Origin: Candidatus Woesearchaeota archaeon
GTDB lineage: Archaea > Nanobdellota > Nanobdellia > Woesearchaeales > UBA10216
Reading direction: 5' to 3'
NCBI GenBank assembly: GCA_016192905.1
Contig: JACPTG010000001.1
Span: 421,005 to 485,004, forward strand
Length of the DNA stretch: 64,000 nt
Shown: piece by piece, positions 20,052 through 33,833 of the stretch
How the letters are laid out: every line of letters begins with the position of its first letter
Position numbering within the stretch: the first letter of the stretch is position 1
The notes under the pieces: generated by a model
Seen by the model: the letters and a program-made list of their open reading frames with translations, nothing else
The model's database searches: none
What the model was told of the DNA's origin: nothing
Translations under genes and position numbers: made by a program

Positions 20052-20320
20052 GCTTTGAGTCCGAGAACGGAGATTGAGTATGGCTTCTTGCAGATTACGC
20101 CAAGCTCATCATTGGGAACGCTGAGCGTTTCCACAGCCGCGTTTGTCATCCTGCTGTATGTTTCTATGTCCGCTTTCACCCTCGCCGGGCAGTTGCTTGA
20201 CAGGTACACTTTCACTAACTTGCCTGTCTTCAGAGCCTTAACGGTCCTTTCTGTACCTATTACTGCATTGTTCTCCTTAATCGCCTTCTTTAACTCGGAT
20301 GAAATGTCCATTTCAGTCAT
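20048..20320 (-). CDS. rpl30e: Large-subunit ribosomal protein eL30
   Basis: 90 residues of the L7Ae/L30e fold: DISSELKKAIKENNAVIGTE, RTVKALKTGKLVKVYLSSNCP, NAAVETLSVPNDELGVICKKP. It is a 50S component related to kink-turn-binding proteins. It overlaps rpoA2 by 8 bases and the NusA-like gene by 4, giving the conserved rpoA2-rpl30e-nusA-rps12 order. Confidence 0.93.
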   Translation of the reverse strand: MTEMDISSELKKAIKENNAVIGTERTVKALKTGKLVKVYLSSNCPARVKADIETYSRMTNAAVETLSVPNDELGVICKKPYSISVLGLKA

Positions 20321-22988
20321 CGCTGCGTTTCATAACCAGCCTCGGAAGGCCGGTCCCTATCGGTACAGGCTGATTGAGCATAACATTTTCAACCACTGAG
20401 TTGAGCCTGTCAACTTCTCCTGTAAGCGAGGCGCTTATAATGTGCTTAATCGGCGTCTCGAAAGACGCCCTGGCAAGCACGCTCGCCTTCTCCCTCACAA
20501 CCCCATACCTTGTAATGCCCTTCAGGCTTCCATTGAAGCACATTGTGTCAGCGACCAGCATCAAATGCCTGATGTCAACGTTCAGCCCCTGGTTCTCAAT
20601 GACCTTGAACACCTCGCTTATCAGCGCCTGCCTCGCCGCCTCAATACCAAGCACTTCCTCAATCTCAAAAATGTCATTGGTAGTCGTCCTTGTAGCGTCC
20701 ACGAACGGAAGCGAAAGCAACTTCTTCAGGTTGCTGCCTGACGTTATAATCATGAACTCGCCATCCTTCTTCACAGGAAGAACCTGGGTGATTCCACGAA
20801 CCCCCCTGATATAGCTGTCCTTGATTTTCTCCTTGTACTTGTAGATCTCATTAGGATTCTCCTCCTTGCTCTTGAGCCTGAATATGTAAGCGCCCTTCTT
20901 CACCTCAACCGACAGGTTCTTGTTGGTGTTCTTCAGCGCCTTAAGAAGATTCGCCTCTGTAATGTTGAGCTCCCTTGCCTTTTCATCATCAAGAGTGACC
21001 TCTATCCGCGACTCGGCGAGATTAAGGACGATTTCAGAGGATATGTCAGCGAGCCGGGTCTCCTTCACATAAAGCGCTATCTTCTTTATGTCCTTGCCCT
21101 GCGAATAAGGCTTCCTGAGGAAAATCTCCATCATAGGAGTCGCAATGTTCTTCCTCCCATCCAAAATCTCAATTATCCTCGGCAGGCCTGTCGTGATGTT
21201 CATCTCAGCGACGCCAGCGAAATGGAAGGTATTTAGCGTGTTGTGGGTCACTATGCCGTCGAATGTTGTGAAGGTTTCGCAATCTTCAACCGAAAAGTCA
21301 TACACATAAGGCGTGCTTGGCGGCACGTATTCCATGCCTGTTATCTCGTCCCATGCAGCATCTGAGCGCAAGGCCCTGTCCATTATCCTTATCTCATCGC
21401 TTATGTCAGTTTCATTGTGAGCCGCTGTTTCCATAAACCTTCTTCTGTACCTTTCCAGCGTCATCTTCCCTATTTTCTGCTTCCTAGTCAGCTTTCTTTC
21501 AAGCCTGCCTGGAATGCCGATCTTTTTCCTGAGACTTTCAAAGAGATTTCCGAAGCCGGGAACCATTTCCACGACATCATAGCTTTTTTCCTCTGGAATT
21601 ATCTCTGCCAGCTTATTGAGGAGCATTTCTTTTCTTGGCATGGAAGATCCGATTTTATCCCTGAAAGCAGGGGAATATCTATGCGATATGCTGAGTGTGT
21701 GCTGTTTCCCGGTCTTTCCCTTGCTTGTATGGATCCCCAGTCTGCTCAGGAGGAAAGCAATGCCGTCCATAAGCTCTTTTGAGTTAGAGCTGGCCCTGAT
21801 AACCCGTCTTTGGACGCTTATGCTCCCGTCGCCATCAAAATACGCCTGCAGGAGACCGGTCACGAAACTTTCATTTGCGGTGAAGGCAAAGCTCGGAACC
21901 CTTTTGCCTGCTGACTTCCTGCTGCATGTCAAGTTGATAAAGTCTGCAATGAGTGTCGAGTTTATAATTAGGCTTGCGCTCTCCCCATACTGGCCCTTCT
22001 CCCTTTTTATTCTGTGGCCGATTCCGAATTTCCTCGGGATTTTTGCGCAGTTTTCCAGATATTCCGGGGAAATGTTTGTTATTGCAATGTAATTTGCAGT
22101 GTGTGTCCCCTCTGCCAAGTACGCTCCTGTCAAGAAGCCGAACTCCTTGTCAAGCTCAATGGATTCCGGTATCCTTGCCTTGCCATGATTCTGGTATGTA
22201 TATACAAGCGGCTCCTGGATAAGGATGCTTCCCCTGCCCCTGGCTATGTTGTTTATCTGCTCATATTTCAGGGGGCTTGTAAACTCCCTTGCCTTCCTGC
22301 TGTTTCCTGCCTGAATTATTTTTGAGATTTCGCTGGCATATACGTATTTATCTTTTGGAAGGTAAGTTTCCAGCAGAATTCTGTCCGTAGTCTCTGTCCT
22401 TATTTCCCTGGCCACTGGAAGCCGTGTGCCCACTGCAAGGCTGCTGGCTGGAACCGATGTGATTCGGTTGTTTTGCCTTATGACAAATGAGTGGTAGGGT
22501 GTGGCGGTTATCGAGCGCCCTGACCTTGTGGTTATTCTTACCAGACTTTCAGGCGATTTGTGCCTGCTTAGGGCTGTTACCTTTTTCCATTCTATCCTTT
22601 CATTCTGGCCAAGCGCGGGCACGTACACATCTGCGTTGACTGGCAGCACCTGGGTTTCTCCCTGGCGCATTACGGGGTTTTCGGACATCGCGGCGTCAAT
22701 TAGCTCCCCTATCCTCACGGCCCTTACGCCATTTCCTGTCCTTACTATCACTCTTTCCTCGTAGTCCAGCGACATCTGCGTCCCGGGCTCACCAATTGAT
22801 TCTGCGGAAACAAGCCCGACGCTCTCGCCTGGCTCGGCAAGCATCTGCCTGTACTGGCTTTCAACCCTTTCCATAATCTCCTTAGCCTTTGCCTCGGAAA
22901 GCTTCCTGGGCAGGTTGGCAGCAAGCTCCTCAATCACAGTTGACGGAAGCCTGTCCTCGTATTTTTTCAGCAGCTCTTCAGGCTCCAT
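20313..22988 (-). CDS. rpoA2: RNA polymerase subunit A'' with an intein
   Basis: The chosen start is MEPEELLKKYEDRL (22988), directly after the rpoA1 stop; an upstream ATG at 23009 would add seven residues inside rpoA1. The extein is the C-terminal part of the largest subunit: LVSAESIGEPGTQM before and TLNTFHFAGVAEMNITTGLPR after the insertion, then the jaw and clamp regions (LPFVDATRTTTNDIFEIEEVLGIEAARQALI ... DIRHLMLVADTMCFNGSL). The insertion sits in the most conserved bridge/trigger-proximal motif. The mature length without it (about 380 residues) is normal for archaeal A''. Splicing must occur for a working polymerase. Confidence 0.95.
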   Translation of the reverse strand: MEPEELLKKYEDRLPSTVIEELAANLPRKLSEAKAKEIMERVESQYRQMLAEPGESVGLVSAESIGEPGTQMSLDYEERVIVRTGNGVRAVRIGELIDAAMSENPVMRQGETQVLPVNADVYVPALGQNERIEWKKVTALSRHKSPESLVRITTRSGRSITATPYHSFVIRQNNRITSVPASSLAVGTRLPVAREIRTETTDRILLETYLPKDKYVYASEISKIIQAGNSRKAREFTSPLKYEQINNIARGRGSILIQEPLVYTYQNHGKARIPESIELDKEFGFLTGAYLAEGTHTANYIAITNISPEYLENCAKIPRKFGIGHRIKREKGQYGESASLIINSTLIADFINLTCSRKSAGKRVPSFAFTANESFVTGLLQAYFDGDGSISVQRRVIRASSNSKELMDGIAFLLSRLGIHTSKGKTGKQHTLSISHRYSPAFRDKIGSSMPRKEMLLNKLAEIIPEEKSYDVVEMVPGFGNLFESLRKKIGIPGRLERKLTRKQKIGKMTLERYRRRFMETAAHNETDISDEIRIMDRALRSDAAWDEITGMEYVPPSTPYVYDFSVEDCETFTTFDGIVTHNTLNTFHFAGVAEMNITTGLPRIIEILDGRKNIATPMMEIFLRKPYSQGKDIKKIALYVKETRLADISSEIVLNLAESRIEVTLDDEKARELNITEANLLKALKNTNKNLSVEVKKGAYIFRLKSKEENPNEIYKYKEKIKDSYIRGVRGITQVLPVKKDGEFMIITSGSNLKKLLSLPFVDATRTTTNDIFEIEEVLGIEAARQALISEVFKVIENQGLNVDIRHLMLVADTMCFNGSLKGITRYGVVREKASVLARASFETPIKHIISASLTGEVDRLNSVVENVMLNQPVPIGTGLPRLVMKRSDD
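21240..22772 (-). mobile_element. Intein with LAGLIDADG homing endonuclease in RpoA''
   Basis: 511 codons in frame, from Ser (SLDYEERVIVRTG, splice block A) after GTQM to the terminal His-Asn (DGIVTHN), with Thr as the +1 extein residue. The homing endonuclease has both LAGLIDADG-type motifs (FGFLTGAYLAEGT and TGLLQAYFDGDG). The C-terminal splicing block is YVYDFSVEDCETFTTFDGIV. All splicing residues are present, so it should be self-excising, and the endonuclease looks intact. The first residue is Ser rather than the more usual Cys. Confidence 0.93.
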
Positions 22989-22989
22989 C

Positions 22990-25662
22990 CTATTCCATGA
23001 CCTCGGCAATTATGCGCTTCACATTTATCTTTCCAGCCTCTGACTTTGAAACGTCTATCCCGTCCTCGCCATAGCTAAACTGGATAATCCTCCTGCTCGC
23101 ATCCCTGACTGTATGATCATACTCAACCTTAAGGTCCTGCATGGCATTGGCCAGCCTCCTGTACAGGTACCCTGATTTCGGCGTCCTAAGCGCGGTATCC
23201 ATAAGGCTATCCCTGCCCACCATTGCCTGGAAGAAGAACTCCGGCGGCGAAAGGCCCTTCTTGAAACAATTCTTGATGAACCCATGCGCCTCTGGCCCGA
23301 TATCATTCCTTTCAAAGCAGCTTAGGGTGCGGTGCTTATACCCTTTCTCAATCCTCTTTGCCCTGAGGGCCTGCTGGCCAACTGTAGCGGCCATCTGGGC
23401 CAGGTTGATTGTGGTCCCCCTTGCGCCTGAAAGCGCCATAATCATTGTATGGCTGCTCCTGTCAGCACTCCTGGAAACTATAAGGCCAGCCTCATTCCTC
23501 GCCCTGTTCAGCACTTCCATAATCTTAAGCTCAAGGGTCTCCCTCAGTGTCCTTCCCGGGAAAGCCTCAAGCTGCCCCTCCCTATACTGCCTTATCAGCT
23601 CATTCACCTCATTGCTGCTGGAATCAAGCAGCTGCCTGACCTCCCTGCTTATTTTTTCAGGAAGGTCTGTGTCTGACACAGTTGTGGTAAAGCCCCTTTT
23701 CATTAGAACCTGAATGCCCAGCCTGAAAACTTTTCCAATGAACTCCACAGCCTTCTTCTCGCCATACTTATGATGTATGTTCCTGAGAAGCAGCCCTGAA
23801 CCCTCACCCAGGTTGTTCTTGTCCATCACGCCTGACACCAGCTTCCCGCCCTCGATTACAACCTCAGGCTCCTCAGGCGACTTGGAACGCCCCACAAAGC
23901 CGAAGTCCTCAGGCAAAATAACGCTGAAAATCTCCTTTCCTGTAACGGTTTCCTTCCTAGGAAGCCTCCCGAGCTCAGGTATCTCAGCCCTTGCAAGAAG
24001 GTCTATAGCAGCCTCCCTGCCCATAGAAAAGCTTTTCTGGGTAAGAAGGTAATTCCCTGAAATGGCGTCCTGAACGCAGCCAATAACCGCAAGCCCATAC
24101 CTGGGGCTGATAAGCTGCGTCTGGACAAGCATCAGAATCTCGGCCTCTGCCATCGCCTCCTCGGTCTGCGGAATATGAAGGTTCATCTCATCACCATCGA
24201 AGTCCGCGTTGTAAGGGAAGCACACCGCGGGATTAAGCCTAAGCGTCTTGAAAGGCAGAACCCTGATGTGGTGAACCATCATGCTCATCCTGTGCAGGGA
24301 AGGCTGCCTGTTGAAAATTGCTATGTCGCCGTCCATAAGATGCCTCTCAACCACATAACCAGGCTGCAGCTCCTCAAGGGCCTGCTCAATAGTCTCCTCA
24401 GTAAGCTTCTTCTTCTTCCCATCAGGCCTCACAATGTAATTAGCACCCGGATACTTCTTCGGACCCTTCTCCACAAATTTTTTCAGATAGCCCATATTCC
24501 ACTGCGTTACCCTTTCAGGCACAGTCAACTTGAGAGCCATCACCTCAGGAACGCCAACCTCAGTAATGTCCAGCATAGGGTCAGGGCTGATAACAGTCCT
24601 TGCGGAGAAGTTGGTCCTCTTGCCAGCAAGGTTATGCCTAATCCTGCCCTCCTTGCTCTTTATCCTCTCTGTCAGCGTCTTCAGCGGCTGGCCTGACCTG
24701 TGCCTTGCCGGAGGAAGCTGCGCCACCTCATTGTCAAAAAATGTGGTAATGTGATACTGAAGCAAATCCCAAAGATCCTCAACAATTATCTCAGGAGCGC
24801 CTGCGTTAATGTTCTCAAACAGCCTCTGGTTTATCCGGACAATGTCCCCCAGCTTGTGAGTCAAATCGTCCTCACTGCGCTCGCCTGTCTCCAGTGTAAT
24901 TGAAGGCCTCATAGTGACCGGCGGGATTGGAAGGACGGTAAGGACTGTCCATTCAGGCCTGGCAATCTTTGTGTTCAGGCCGAAAAGCTCTGCATCAGCA
25001 TCGCTGATTTTCTCCAGCCTTGTCCTGATCTCAATTGGCGAAATCCGCTTTTCATCCTCAAGGAATGTCGTCGGCTTCTCAATTGCGACCTTGCCCTGCT
25101 TGGCCTTGCAATGAGGGCACTTGTTCCCCAGCCGCTGGATTACCTCCCTAATCTTCTTGCGCAGCAACTCCTCACCCTTCTCCTTCCCATACTGCCTCAG
25201 CTTCTCCGAGTACTTGTCCAGCTTGTCCTGAGGGATTAAAATGCGGCCGCACTCCCTGCAAGTGCACCTGAGAAGCGTCAGTATAACCCCTGAAAAGTTC
25301 AGATGTATGATTGGCCTGGCGAGCGAAATGTAGCCAAAATGGCCCACGCACTCCTTGAGCTTGCTGCCGCACGTCTTGCACCTAAGGCCAGGGTCAATCA
25401 CCCCAAGCCTAATATCCATCAGCCCGCCGTCAACAGGATAGCCTTCCTTGTCATAAAGCTCAGGAGTAACTATCTTTGCAGAAGCCATCTTCTTAATCAT
25501 CTTAGGGCTTAAAAGGCCAAATTGCACTGACCTCACCTGCTTGTAAACCACCTGCTCCTCCTCAACAGGCTTCCTCTCTACAGGAGCGGCATCTGGCGCC
25601 TTTACCTCCTCAAGCTCCATTTCCTCAGCGACTGCCTCTGGCTTTTCGTCTTCCATTTTCAA
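22990..25662 (-). CDS. rpoA1: RNA polymerase subunit A'
   Basis: 890 residues. An acidic N-terminal extension of about 40 residues (EDEKPEAVAEEMELEEV...) precedes the conserved start QVRSVQFGLLSPKMIKKMA. Zinc sites CKTCGSKLKECVGHFGYI and CTCRECGRI...CPHCKAKQ follow, then the catalytic NADFDGDEMNLHIPQ magnesium motif and HRTLSCFERNDIGPEAHGFI near the C-terminus. This is the catalytic N-terminal part of the largest subunit. It overlaps rpoB1 by 4 bases. The extension is longer than in typical archaeal A' and looks disordered. Confidence 0.96.
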   Translation of the reverse strand: MKMEDEKPEAVAEEMELEEVKAPDAAPVERKPVEEEQVVYKQVRSVQFGLLSPKMIKKMASAKIVTPELYDKEGYPVDGGLMDIRLGVIDPGLRCKTCGSKLKECVGHFGYISLARPIIHLNFSGVILTLLRCTCRECGRILIPQDKLDKYSEKLRQYGKEKGEELLRKKIREVIQRLGNKCPHCKAKQGKVAIEKPTTFLEDEKRISPIEIRTRLEKISDADAELFGLNTKIARPEWTVLTVLPIPPVTMRPSITLETGERSEDDLTHKLGDIVRINQRLFENINAGAPEIIVEDLWDLLQYHITTFFDNEVAQLPPARHRSGQPLKTLTERIKSKEGRIRHNLAGKRTNFSARTVISPDPMLDITEVGVPEVMALKLTVPERVTQWNMGYLKKFVEKGPKKYPGANYIVRPDGKKKKLTEETIEQALEELQPGYVVERHLMDGDIAIFNRQPSLHRMSMMVHHIRVLPFKTLRLNPAVCFPYNADFDGDEMNLHIPQTEEAMAEAEILMLVQTQLISPRYGLAVIGCVQDAISGNYLLTQKSFSMGREAAIDLLARAEIPELGRLPRKETVTGKEIFSVILPEDFGFVGRSKSPEEPEVVIEGGKLVSGVMDKNNLGEGSGLLLRNIHHKYGEKKAVEFIGKVFRLGIQVLMKRGFTTTVSDTDLPEKISREVRQLLDSSSNEVNELIRQYREGQLEAFPGRTLRETLELKIMEVLNRARNEAGLIVSRSADRSSHTMIMALSGARGTTINLAQMAATVGQQALRAKRIEKGYKHRTLSCFERNDIGPEAHGFIKNCFKKGLSPPEFFFQAMVGRDSLMDTALRTPKSGYLYRRLANAMQDLKVEYDHTVRDASRRIIQFSYGEDGIDVSKSEAGKINVKRIIAEVME

Positions 25663-27462: not shown

Positions 27463-28959
27463 CTACCTCAAAGCAACCGGCTTCATGCCAAACGACCTCA
27501 ACGCCTTCAAAAGCTCATCCTCAGGAGTATCCTGGCTGACAGTCGCAAGCAGGGCAAGGTTCTTCTTGAGCCCGATGTTAGTCCCCTCTGGAGTCTCAAT
27601 CGGGCAAAGCCTCCCAAGATGCGTGCTGTGCAGCTCCCTAGCCTCAAAATTCTCCTGCGTAGCCGACAGGGGACTGACAACCCTCTGAAGATGAGACATG
27701 GTCTCAAGATAGTTAAGCCTCTGAATCCTCTGGCTGATGCCCTTGCGGCCGCCTGTCCAGGTGCCTGTAGCCATCGAACTGTAAATCCTTGACGTCAGAA
27801 GCTTTTCGCGTATAATAACCTTAATCGTGGGAAACTTCCCCCGCTTGACTATCCGCTGAAAGTTGTAAAGAAGGTCGCCTATAAGAACCTTCATGTTAAC
27901 CCTGATAAGGTCAGCAAGCAAATCTCCGCTCAACTTCAGCCGCTTGTTCGCATAGTTATCCTTGTCATCAAGCTCCAGCTCACCCCTGAAGGTAAGGATG
28001 AGCTTCTTCAGCATCTTGCAAAGATTATACGCCTTAACCGGCCTGTCCCTCGGCGATGTGCCAAGATGAGGCAACAGGTACTTGTCAAGCAGCTCACGCA
28101 TCCTCTCAATCCTTATCTCCTTAGACTGCGTAATGCCTGACCTCTTTGCAAGATAGTCCACCGCATCCTCCTCAGTCTTTATGTCAGCCGCCTCAAGGAG
28201 ATTAACGATTATCTCATCAAAGTGCCGCTCAGCCGAGATAAACCTGCTAATCTCCTCATCCTTAGTAAGGCCAAGCGCCTTAATGATGACAACCACAGGC
28301 ATCCTCCTCACCCTGGTGAAGGTCAGATAGAAGATGCCATCCCTCAGCCTCTCAATCAAATGAGGTATCTTGTACGAGCTGTACTCAGAGAAAATCTTGC
28401 CAACAAACTTGCTCGTGCTTGAACTATCCGTGTCTGTGATAAACCTGTTTGCAGCCAAATCCTCAACCTTGACCAGCACCTTCTCAGTGCCATTAATAAT
28501 GAAGTACCCGCCAGGGTCATCAGGGTCCTCGCCCCTCGCAATCAACTCCTCCCTCGACAGCCTGTACAGATGGCACTGCTTGGACTTGAGCATAACAGGC
28601 AAATTCCCAATCTGGGTCTCAAAAGACTCCCGCTGCGCGCCGTTAATGTGGGCGCTTACAGTAATATACATGGGAGCGGCATAGGTCATCTTCCTGAGCC
28701 TCGCCTCAATGGGATACTTTGCCTCATTCTCACCGCTTCCGTCAGACTCAATTATCTGCGGCTTGGTAACCCTGACCTTGTCAAACTTTATCTTGAATTC
28801 GTCAACATTAGGCGGGATTATTGTAGGCTCAATCTCGCTATTCTCTGCAATAATCCTTGGAAGCTCAACATCAATGAAATTATTGAAGGACTCAATGTCT
28901 GACTTGATGAACGACTGCTCATCAAAATACTTCCTCAAAAGAATCTCCTGGCTATCCAC
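27463..28959 (-). CDS. rpoB2: RNA polymerase subunit B'' (N-terminal part of the second-largest subunit)
   Basis: 498 residues: protrusion, lobe and fork. Landmarks are EIEPTIIPPNVDEFKIKFDKVR, YPIEARLRKMTYAAPMYITV, GYFIINGTEKVLVKVEDLAANRF and the C-terminal LHSTHLGRLCPIETPEGTNIGLKKNLAL, where splitting from B' occurs just beyond. It overlaps rpoH by 8 bases. The order rpoH-rpoB2-rpoB1-rpoA1-rpoA2 is the standard archaeal one. Confidence 0.96.
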   Translation of the reverse strand: MDSQEILLRKYFDEQSFIKSDIESFNNFIDVELPRIIAENSEIEPTIIPPNVDEFKIKFDKVRVTKPQIIESDGSGENEAKYPIEARLRKMTYAAPMYITVSAHINGAQRESFETQIGNLPVMLKSKQCHLYRLSREELIARGEDPDDPGGYFIINGTEKVLVKVEDLAANRFITDTDSSSTSKFVGKIFSEYSSYKIPHLIERLRDGIFYLTFTRVRRMPVVVIIKALGLTKDEEISRFISAERHFDEIIVNLLEAADIKTEEDAVDYLAKRSGITQSKEIRIERMRELLDKYLLPHLGTSPRDRPVKAYNLCKMLKKLILTFRGELELDDKDNYANKRLKLSGDLLADLIRVNMKVLIGDLLYNFQRIVKRGKFPTIKVIIREKLLTSRIYSSMATGTWTGGRKGISQRIQRLNYLETMSHLQRVVSPLSATQENFEARELHSTHLGRLCPIETPEGTNIGLKKNLALLATVSQDTPEDELLKALRSFGMKPVALR

Positions 28960-29194
28960 TTACAACCACCCTATAAAACACAGTCTTTCCAGCAGTAGGG
29001 CTGCTCCTGTTAATCTTTATCACCTCGCCCGGCCTTGCAGCCATACCCCCCAGCATAGGATCACTCTTCTTGATCCTCGGAAGCTCAGAAACACTTATGC
29101 CATACTTCTGAAGCAGATCCTCCTTCTCCTTCTCACCCAGTTTCTGGCCCTTGGGCACAAGCACGTGTTTCTTTACGTCAACCTTCTTGGTCAT
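28952..29194 (-). CDS. rpoH: RNA polymerase subunit H
   Basis: 80 residues matching the archaeal H/eukaryotic RPB5 C-terminal domain: VLVPKGQKLGEKEKEDLLQKYGIS, ELPRIKKSDPML and RPGEVIKINRSSPTAGKTVFYRVV. It stabilises the jaw of the polymerase. It is the first protein gene of the operon and follows the tRNA-Asp/tRNA-Lys pair on the same strand, only 22 bases away. Confidence 0.95.
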   Translation of the reverse strand: MTKKVDVKKHVLVPKGQKLGEKEKEDLLQKYGISVSELPRIKKSDPMLGGMAARPGEVIKINRSSPTAGKTVFYRVVVSG

Positions 29195-29215: not shown

Positions 29216-29319
29216 AGGGCCGGACGGGACTTTCGTGCCTTGGTTTCGAACCCGTGACCGTCTGCTTAAAAGGCAGACGCGCTATAGCCCAGCATGCCTC
29301 CAGGCTGCGCTACCGGCCC
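29216..29319 (-). tRNA. tRNA-Lys (UUU) with two 15-base introns
   Basis: The acceptor stem is GGGCCGG/CCGGCCC and the anticodon loop is CTTTTAA. One insert of 15 bases lies in the D loop (29285-29299, position 19/20): helix GCCT/GGGC with 3-base bulges GGA and TAT. Another of 15 bases lies in the T loop (29231-29245, position 59/60): central helix TTCG/CGAA with bulges AAA and AGT. Cutting each bulge after its second base restores D loop AGCCTGGTA and T loop TTCGAAT. Both are bulge-helix-bulge introns at non-canonical sites, removed by the splicing endonuclease. CCA is not encoded, and the base after the acceptor reads T on the gene strand. Confidence 0.9.
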
Positions 29320-29333
29320 ACCCTAAGCATAAG

Positions 29334-29437
29334 CGCCCTGGCCGGGACTTTCACACTCGTTTTGAACCCGGGTCGCAGCCGTTCTGCCTACTGCGGCTGA
29401 CAGGGCTGCATGATAGGCCGGACTACACTACCAGGGC
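29334..29437 (-). tRNA. tRNA-Asp (GUC) with two small introns
   Basis: The acceptor stem is GCCCTGG/CCAGGGC with G73. The anticodon arm GCAGCC-CTGTCAC-GGCTGC is split by a 16-base insert after A37 (29382-29397), the canonical 37/38 site: helix CTGT/GCAG, bulges CAG and AAC. The T loop holds a 13-base insert (29348-29360, position 59/60): helix TTCA/TGAA, bulges AAA and AGT, leaving TTCAAAT. The D arm is normal. It lies 14 bases upstream of tRNA-Lys in the same transcript, and both precede rpoH. Confidence 0.9.
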
Positions 29438-29548
29438 ATCTCAACGCGGCAAATGGCCCTGCCACCTCTACAACATAGCCTTGGCGGGAATTAATTTGCA
29501 CCAGGAATGTAGAAAGACTGCAAAGCCATATACAGGGGAGGATTGGGC

Positions 29549-29557
29549 AGTAATATT
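29549..29557 (-). promoter_or_regulatory. TATA box, probable promoter of the tRNA-Asp/tRNA-Lys/rpo operon
   Basis: On the minus strand, CCTTTAAATATTAC overlaps the stop codon of the upstream regulator gene and lies about 110 bases before tRNA-Asp. No better TATA box was seen closer to the tRNA genes. The stretch between (29438-29525) holds no open frame I could support. Confidence 0.4.
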
Positions 29558-30282
29558 TAAAGGTTTCTAAACGCCTTGTCAGGCGGACTTTGGTTAAGAT
29601 AAACCACATTAGTCATGCCATGGGTTTCCTTTGAAATGATGCCGCTCCTGGCCATGCTTTCCAGATTCCTGGATACCGATGACTTGGGTATTTTAACATC
29701 GGCCTCTACCTGCTTCTGGGTAAGCGGCTTGCCAGCCCTCTCCAGCAGCTCAACAATCTGCAGCTGGCGGGGGGGCAGAAGCTGCTTCCTGTACCAAGGC
29801 AAAGGCCGCCTCCGGGAGCTGGCAATGCGGAAAGCAAGCCAGACAATCCCAGCAGCAGCCAACAGGACTGCAATTCCAGCCGCCACAGGAACACTCCTGA
29901 TGCCATCGGCTATGCTGTATTCCACTGCCACAGCCAGCACCTGCCCCTTGCCCGTGCCCTTAACAAAGGTATGCTCCCCTGAATTCCCAATCCTAATCTG
30001 CCCTGCACTCTTAATGTAATTAATCTCAGCTCCTGAAGGCAATTCAACAGAATACACATACTCGGAGAATGACTCATTGATGCTTATGTTCAGCAGCCAA
30101 TGGCTCCCACGCTTTGACGTGAAATCCTGGGTTGTACGCTCTGCAAGCAGCGGATGATTTGAAATGCCCCTAATCCTGGCAGAGCCTGTCCCATCAACTG
30201 AAATTGTAACGTCCGCAAAATACTGCTCTGCGCGGGCAACAGGCAACAGCAGAAGCAGAAAGACAAAAGCAACTCTCCTCAT
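29557..30282 (-). CDS. Membrane-anchored winged-helix transcriptional regulator
   Basis: 241 residues. A signal peptide (RRVAFVFLLLLLPVARAEQ) leads to an external beta-rich domain (about 20-130). A transmembrane helix follows (VPVAAGIAVLLAAAGIVWLAF), then a cytoplasmic winged helix: PPRQLQIVELLERAGKPLTQKQVEADVKIPKSSVSRNLESMARSGIISKE. The recognition helix is IPKSSVSRNLESM. The layout, external sensor plus MarR/DUF7343-like DNA-binding tail, is known in archaea as a one-component membrane regulator. Its target is unknown. It lies just upstream of the tRNA/rpo operon, with its stop codon inside that promoter. Confidence 0.8.
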   Translation of the reverse strand: MRRVAFVFLLLLLPVARAEQYFADVTISVDGTGSARIRGISNHPLLAERTTQDFTSKRGSHWLLNISINESFSEYVYSVELPSGAEINYIKSAGQIRIGNSGEHTFVKGTGKGQVLAVAVEYSIADGIRSVPVAAGIAVLLAAAGIVWLAFRIASSRRRPLPWYRKQLLPPRQLQIVELLERAGKPLTQKQVEADVKIPKSSVSRNLESMARSGIISKETHGMTNVVYLNQSPPDKAFRNL

Positions 30283-33591: not shown

Positions 33592-33675
33592 CTTCCCCTT
33601 GCGAAGGGCTGTCCGTCCTTTAGACGACGCGGCCGCGCCGAGGGTAGAACCCAGGTGCGGCTCCCAACCTTTTCC
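33592..33675 (-). ncRNA. GC-rich structured RNA with a tRNA-like 5' half
   Basis: A GC-rich island in AT-rich surroundings. A minus-strand TATA box (TTATAAAAACC, about 33696-33706) predicts a start near 33675. The second half, GCGTCGTCTAAAGGAC then GGACAGCCCTTCGCAAGGG, parallels positions 7 to 41 of the tRNA-like gene at 33761-33833, including the TTCGCA loop. No normal T arm follows it. The first half (CCTGGGTTCTACCCTCGG then CGCGGCC) could form a weak T arm and acceptor strand, raising a permuted or decayed tRNA. A different small RNA is equally possible. Confidence 0.4.
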
Positions 33676-33760
33676 TGCCCTTTTCCAAATCATAAGGTTT
33701 TTATAATTTGAGGCCATGGTTAGCTTCACATGCGAGCGGGCGTAGACGACATAAATTGTG

Positions 33761-33833
33761 CAGGCGTGCCGCGATTTGAACGCGGATTAGCCCATGCGAA
33801 CAGGCTGTCCTGTCCAAATTAGACGACACGCCT
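33761..33833 (-). tRNA. tRNA-like gene, anticodon unclear (possibly CGC)
   Basis: The acceptor stem AGGCGTG/CACGCCT, the T arm CCGCG-TTCAAAT-CGCGG and the D arm GTCT-loop-GGAC with GG in the loop are all well formed. The anticodon arm is odd: AGCCT/GGGCT pairs only with an 8-base loop (GTTCGCAT), so the anticodon is uncertain, CGC (Ala) being the simplest reading. The pair 3-70 is G-C, not the G-U typical of tRNA-Ala. It may be an unusual tRNA or a pseudogene. No introns are seen. Confidence 0.55.

Follow-up and report, generated by a model that had tools for sequence, protein, structure and literature searches.

Candidate bulge-helix-bulge introns in tRNA genes and the ligase gene rtcB of Woesearchaeota in which a single alpha-type splicing endonuclease gene is detected

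Adjacent genes for tRNA-Lys(UUU) and tRNA-Asp(GUC) in a Woesearchaeota genome are each interrupted twice, and the four inserts are very probably bulge-helix-bulge (BHB) introns, mostly of the bulge-helix-loop form, that are cut out by the splicing endonuclease EndA, after which the ligase RtcB joins the exons. A wider proposal, for and against which we see about equal weight, is that a lone alpha-type EndA, which lacks both a beta subunit and the Crenarchaea-specific loop, splices tRNAs broadly, which would overturn the accepted rule on enzyme and intron types, and that in part of the group RtcB joins its own message in a feedback arrangement. The genes were found in a stretch of 64,000 nucleotides, here called the window. 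The host genome (G000) amounts to 1.43 Mb in 6 contigs and is 95% complete, and its closest rpoB'' matches are Woesearchaeota MAGs with 84% identity.

Two tRNA genes with four short inserts

The unit lies on the minus strand in the order TATA box (CCTTTAAATATTACTG, 29548..29563), tRNA-Asp, tRNA-Lys and rpoH. The last of these (28952..29194, minus strand), which encodes an Rpb5 C-terminal domain (PF01191), is immediately downstream of tRNA-Lys and serves as a syntenic anchor. The tRNA-Lys(UUU) gene (29216..29319, minus strand) has 104 nt including its introns and 74 nt when mature. One insert of 15 nt is in the D loop at 19/20 (AGGCATGCTGGGCTA, 29285..29299, minus strand; central helix GCCT/GGGC, bulges GGA/TAT), where an A.A mismatch sets the motif apart from the D stem, and another of 15 nt is in the T loop at 59/60 (ACCAAGGCACGAAAG, 29230..29244, minus strand; central helix TTCG/CGAA, bulges AAA/AGT). 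The discriminator of this tRNA is U73 (window 29216), and is A in most relatives. The tRNA-Asp(GUC) gene (29334..29437, minus strand) also has 104 nt, of which 75 nt are mature, and carries an insert of 16 nt in the anticodon loop at 37/38 (GCCGCAGTAGGCAGAA, 29382..29397, minus strand; central helix CTGT/GCAG, bulges CAG/AAC) and one of 13 nt in the T loop at 59/60 (ACGAGTGTGAAAG, 29348..29360, minus strand; central helix TTCA/TGAA, bulges AAA/AGT).

These positions bear out the sites and sizes proposed in the first-pass annotation, as well as its reading of the inserts as BHB motifs with a 4-bp centre: a 3-nt bulge, a 4-bp helix and a 3-nt bulge occur at the borders of all four. Cutting in silico after the second bulge base leaves normal loops and a standard cloverleaf, again as claimed. 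The strict motif has inner and outer helices at the bulges; in the four window introns the inner helix is slight or absent, which places them in the relaxed, bulge-helix-loop subclass. In the mechanism we propose, the pre-tRNA would fold so that the 3' portion of the intron pairs with four exon bases and each splice site lies in a 3-nt bulge; a single alpha-type EndA (~180 amino acids, presumed to be a homotetramer) would cut each bulge behind its second base, and the exons would then be joined by RtcB.

A BHB-aware parser, which scores cloverleaves once bulge-helix-bulge inserts are taken out, returned exactly these four inserts as its best solution. The spliced genes score 66.6 and 62.9, compared with 49.5-64.5 for intron-free tRNAs of the same genome, and the best score among 391 random window segments is 30.0. 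By chance, a complete 4-bp central helix exactly at the junction is expected in 1.4-2.9% of random inserts at each site, and at all four sites together with a probability of ~1.6e-7. The sequence thus supports the assignment of the inserts as tRNA introns for the splicing endonuclease.

Conservation of the locus in relatives

The gene order Asp-Lys-rpoH-rpoB'' is kept in many relatives, with the tRNA pair upstream of rpoH. An intron at 59/60 of tRNA-Asp is present in 65 of the 71 syntenic loci with a readable tRNA-Asp, and varies from 13 to 202 nt with unrelated interiors; the corresponding intron of tRNA-Lys is found in 42 of 69 tRNA-Lys genes. The D-loop site of tRNA-Lys (19/20) is again occupied in some relatives and is empty in several, and three introns can reside within one gene (tRNA-Asp of L052 and L078, tRNA-Lys of L049). 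On the rpoB'' tree, the tRNA-Asp 59/60 intron changes state 5 times and the other sites 8-19 times. Because its changes are few, the tRNA-Asp 59/60 intron appears to be old and almost fixed in Woesearchaeales, with introns gained and lost at the other sites.

Alleles without the T-loop intron read TTCRAAT, or TCCGAAT in some tRNA-Lys genes. The second bulge ends in the T that restores TTCRAAT in 104 of 105 distinct intron alleles, so that splicing would give back the loop of the intronless alleles. Exon TTCR and intron YGAA covary, with a fully paired central helix in 87 of the 105 alleles, against 70.8 +/- 2.2 when partners are shuffled (maximum 79 in 5000 shuffles) and 0-4 after a shift of the partner by 1-3 bases. 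Among tRNA-Lys alleles with C55, 6 of 7 have a compensating G opposite. The inner helix has at most 2 bp in 88 of 107 T-loop introns, and none is possible in most of those of 13-16 nt. After splicing in silico, the tRNA-Asp of the window is letter-identical to those of L033 and L034; the intron lengths are 16/13 nt in the window, and 31/32 and 18/26 nt in L033 and L034.

This record bears on two other readings of the inserts. That they stay in the RNA, and that the genes are degenerate or pseudo-tRNAs with insertions, might be suspected from the blindness of standard finders, since ARAGORN and Rfam detected neither window gene, and from the U73 of tRNA-Lys, which is unusual among relatives. 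We regard this as scarcely credible, because the exons are strongly constrained and identical to those of sister genomes, whereas the inserts vary freely and yet keep the pairing at the splice sites; moreover, a search of the host genome found no second Asp-GUC or Lys-UUU gene, and hence no intron-free copy such as would have told against the first-pass annotation. The same annotation took the letters shared by the two T-loop introns (TTCR-AAA / YGAA-AGT) as a sign that one had spread to the other. The letters TTCRA are those of the universal T loop; YGAA pairs with T-loop letters and covaries with the exon. Because pairing with the exon imposes the shared letters, they lose their value as evidence of spread in the window. 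Origin of one window intron from the other by transposition has precedent in Thermoproteales, for which intron transposition has been described (PMC4033280), and in two of 30 genomes, L040 and L038, the Asp and Lys intron interiors are similar (z 14.7 and 7.7). In the other 28 the similarity is not above chance, and in the window the interiors (CGAGTG and CCAAGGCA, 6 and 8 nt) are unrelated and too short, with the agreement limited to letters forced by pairing and the T loop. We therefore think transposition quite unlikely here; from comparison of interiors, copying between Asp and Lys appears clear only in one sister clade, to which L040 and L038 belong. The preferred reading remains that all four inserts are introns for EndA.

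Introns across the host genome

At least ~47 tRNA genes are present in the host genome, and at least 31 of these are interrupted, by at least ~42 introns in all or ~0.89 per gene; these lower bounds come from targeted stretches of the searched genome, in which no tRNA for Thr-GGU, Val-GAC or Arg-CCG turned up. The BHB-aware count of T-loop introns, a check that the first-pass annotation had proposed, is at least 12 at 59/60. That annotation also placed 13-16 bases near the smallest possible size, but the same genome has introns of 11 nt (Val-CAC, Ser-GGA) and 12 nt (Gly-UCC), and the minimum is accordingly lower. Initiator tRNA-Met has three introns, of 31, 26 and 19 nt (L164, G000:C1:602650). 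For the second Lys-CUU intron, the precise borders were set by eye.

We also observed a tRNA-Phe gene (L171, G000:C4:276600-277000) with a 23-nt D-loop intron and an apparent acceptor-stem intron at 4/5, likewise assigned by eye, whose central helix ATGG/CCAT takes in two bases of the leader. An Ile tRNA with a UAU anticodon has two introns (L025, G000:C6:166356).

Other tRNA-related sequences

A hairpin-forming leader (29453..29529, minus strand) lies between the TATA box and tRNA-Asp. The element is ~95 nt long, starts ~25 nt past the TATA box and contains a conserved AAUCYUUCU; a comparable leader and TATA box are found upstream of tRNA-Asp in ~60 relatives. It has no match in Rfam, and RNAalifold gave no consensus structure from an alignment that was poor. 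Possibly, the element is a small RNA or a leader of the pre-tRNA.

Several class II tRNA-like genes of the host genome have T-loop introns and anticodons that are odd for their bodies (L168, L169, L179 and L158 in G000): Ser-like bodies occur with AAG, AAC or CAG, and a bacterial-Leu-like body with CCU. Partial copies of the 5' half are located upstream of L168 and L169. Two further loci, L163 and L170 (G000:C6:149300 and C4:249900), have a TATA box and a tRNA 3' half with no 5' half visible, and might be genes for split tRNAs or else integration remnants. The 3' end of tRNA-Pro(GGG) is duplicated ~2.7 kb downstream of its gene, and the copy looks like one left by an integrated element (L178, G000:C1:242564; L015). 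The window also has two tRNA-like sequences at 33596-33833 (minus strand): one looks bacterial and has an anticodon loop of 8 nt, and the other (GTCGTCTAA...) is truncated and adjoins a CACTGGACA motif, which recurs beside other odd tRNA copies. The rpoA'' frame of the window (20313-23009, minus strand) includes an intein with a LAGLIDADG domain.

The splicing endonuclease

The host genome has one clear PF01974 gene, a 185-amino-acid open frame in which the N- and C-domain families are both present, and a protein search of the genome detected no further splicing-endonuclease gene and no beta gene. A weak second match to PF01974 sits in a transketolase-like frame and was rejected as an endonuclease. 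On the question of enzyme class raised in the first-pass annotation, the host genome thus yields a single gene, of alpha type, and neither a beta nor an epsilon type was detected. As in alpha4 enzymes, there is one alpha gene of ~180 amino acids with N- and C-domains and a Tyr/His/Lys triad, and the frame of 185 amino acids is not the three-unit protein of ~390 amino acids that marks epsilon2 enzymes. A model of the monomer (pLDDT 89.6) has as its best solved match the alpha4 enzyme of M. jannaschii (1a79; TM 0.88/0.90), and EndA presumably forms a homotetramer. The alpha subunit of N. equitans is among the closest solved sequences, and PDB 3iey_B scores far below 3iey_A against this EndA.

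Relatives share this gene content. A single EndA gene is present in nearly all of 79 members of the order, in 134 of 146 matching genomes of the class, and in 38 of the 42 matching genomes among the 50 that have syntenic loci. Within the class, the genome G145 has an alpha gene and a second, weaker, adjoining gene (E 1.3e-4), the pattern expected of a Nanoarchaeum-type beta subunit, and because of this case we consider a beta subunit to be detectable by family search. No insertion was found at the place of the Crenarchaea-specific loop (Lys44) in 31 EndA sequences; almost all of these enzymes have a Lys-Pro-Gly in the loop that joins the catalytic Tyr and His.

In the accepted picture, alpha4 and alpha'2 enzymes are strict, and (alphabeta)2 and epsilon2 enzymes are broad by virtue of a lysine-bearing loop (PMC6379350, PMC12397907). 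Relaxed motifs are not efficiently removed by the former (PMC6379350), although the alpha'2 enzyme of A. fulgidus is reported to cut a bulge-helix-loop at 37/38 in a full pre-tRNA (PMC6379350). Efficient removal of relaxed introns is ascribed to (alphabeta)2 and epsilon2 enzymes only (PMC6379350, PMC4033280), and an (alphabeta)2 enzyme that lacks the loop is said to act weakly on such introns (PMC12397907). The EndA gene content together with the relaxed introns is therefore in conflict with the present model. Introns across the host genome are mostly relaxed, which would argue against a narrow substrate range, and we infer that a lone alpha-type EndA may accept relaxed motifs unaided.

Alternatively, the introns could be real and the enzyme a broad-specificity (alphabeta)2 form with a hidden, very divergent beta subunit. 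Such an enzyme would fit the ability of (alphabeta)2 and epsilon2 enzymes to process relaxed motifs (PMC6379350), and beta subunits do diverge fast, as the scores of 3iey_B and 3iey_A illustrate, so that a very divergent or truncated one could escape a sequence search. Yet the family search that sees the second gene of G145 finds one gene in most of the 147 class members, the protein search of the host likewise gives one, and the N-terminal domain of EndA is complete as in alpha4 enzymes, unlike that of the N. equitans alpha subunit. On this evidence we judge a hidden beta subunit unlikely, and favor an alpha-type EndA that acts alone.

Introns in the ligase gene

The host genome has one copy of rtcB, with archease directly upstream. 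Its reading frame is broken twice (L219:1271-2748, equivalent to G000:C2:112596-114073), by strict BHB introns of 29 and 30 nt. The top-ranked BHB at each break restores MPDAHEGYGFPIGG and SPGGIGYDVNCG, and the protein is full-length after splicing. Both introns split Tyr codons (MPDAHEG-Y-GFPIGG and SPGGIG-Y-DVNCG). Introns in rtcB are found in 12 genomes, the host and 11 relatives (L252, L255, L258, L262-L268 and L271), with ten of the 12 interrupted at the first place and six at the second, and in 14 of these 16 cases the motif-restoring BHB ranks best of 66-114 candidates. A compensatory change is also evident, with exon AGGG accompanied by CCCT in one genome and AAGG by CCTT in others. 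In G089 and G120, rtcB is uninterrupted at both places.

RtcB is the only exon-joining enzyme in other archaea, and is inferred here as the enzyme that joins tRNA exons in vivo. If it is the sole joining enzyme, then RtcB would also have to join its own mRNA. The pre-mRNA introns of cbf5 are similar in being BHB introns of a protein-coding gene that are gained and lost among relatives (PMC2738675), but here the interrupted gene is that of the ligase which joins the exons, and the EndA of the host is of alpha type only.

Comparison with known systems

The first-pass annotation considered multiple non-canonical introns to be known mainly in Thermoproteales and some minimal archaea. This is too narrow, given their occurrence throughout a DPANN order and in Asgard Atabeyarchaeia and Freyarchaeia (PMC11291895). 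The non-canonical BHB introns of Thermoproteales (Sugahara 2008 and Fujishima 2010, cited in PMC8450103 and PMC4033280) resemble those of Woesearchaeota in occurring 2-3 to a tRNA, at non-canonical sites, with relaxed motifs and evidence of intron copying, and the densities are close (0.84 per gene in PMC8450103, ~0.89 here). However, Thermoproteales belong to another phylum and have an (alphabeta)2 enzyme with the Crenarchaea-specific loop where Woesearchaeota have a single alpha-type EndA without it; Woesearchaeota also differ in that introns as short as 11-16 nt are frequent.

ARMAN/Micrarchaeum, with an epsilon2 EndA, are likewise DPANN hosts of non-canonical relaxed introns (PMC12397907, PMC6379350), but their three-unit epsilon protein has ~390 amino acids and the one-unit EndA described here ~180. 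Nanoarchaeum equitans, with an (alphabeta)2 EndA, belongs to the same phylum-level group (PMC4033280, PDB 3iey), whereas in Woesearchaeota no beta gene was found and the N-terminal domain is complete; as to the split tRNAs of N. equitans, the host has none proven and only the two candidate 3' halves. Most tRNA genes of Atabeyarchaeia and Freyarchaeia are interrupted, with many non-canonical introns and several per gene (PMC11291895), although these organisms are of another lineage and the enzyme lay outside the subject of that study (PMC11291895).

Implications

Our literature search, whose coverage was incomplete, returned no report of tRNA introns in Woesearchaeota or of introns in rtcB. Surveys of EndA and introns have reportedly been made (Kaneta 2018 and Fujishima 2011), and priority for the observation of a lone EndA is uncertain. 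Because tRNA finders are blind to genes such as these, the genomes that carry them appear poor in tRNAs. An archaeal order that combines a lone alpha-type enzyme with an intron load similar to the one in Thermoproteales would be a natural counterexample to the coupling of enzyme architecture and intron diversity, a rule that now needs to be tested; the Lys-Pro-Gly loop is a candidate site for mutation. An rtcB gene that itself requires splicing raises a bootstrapping question and, if the proposal is true, the activity of RtcB would control the supply of RtcB in a feedback loop.
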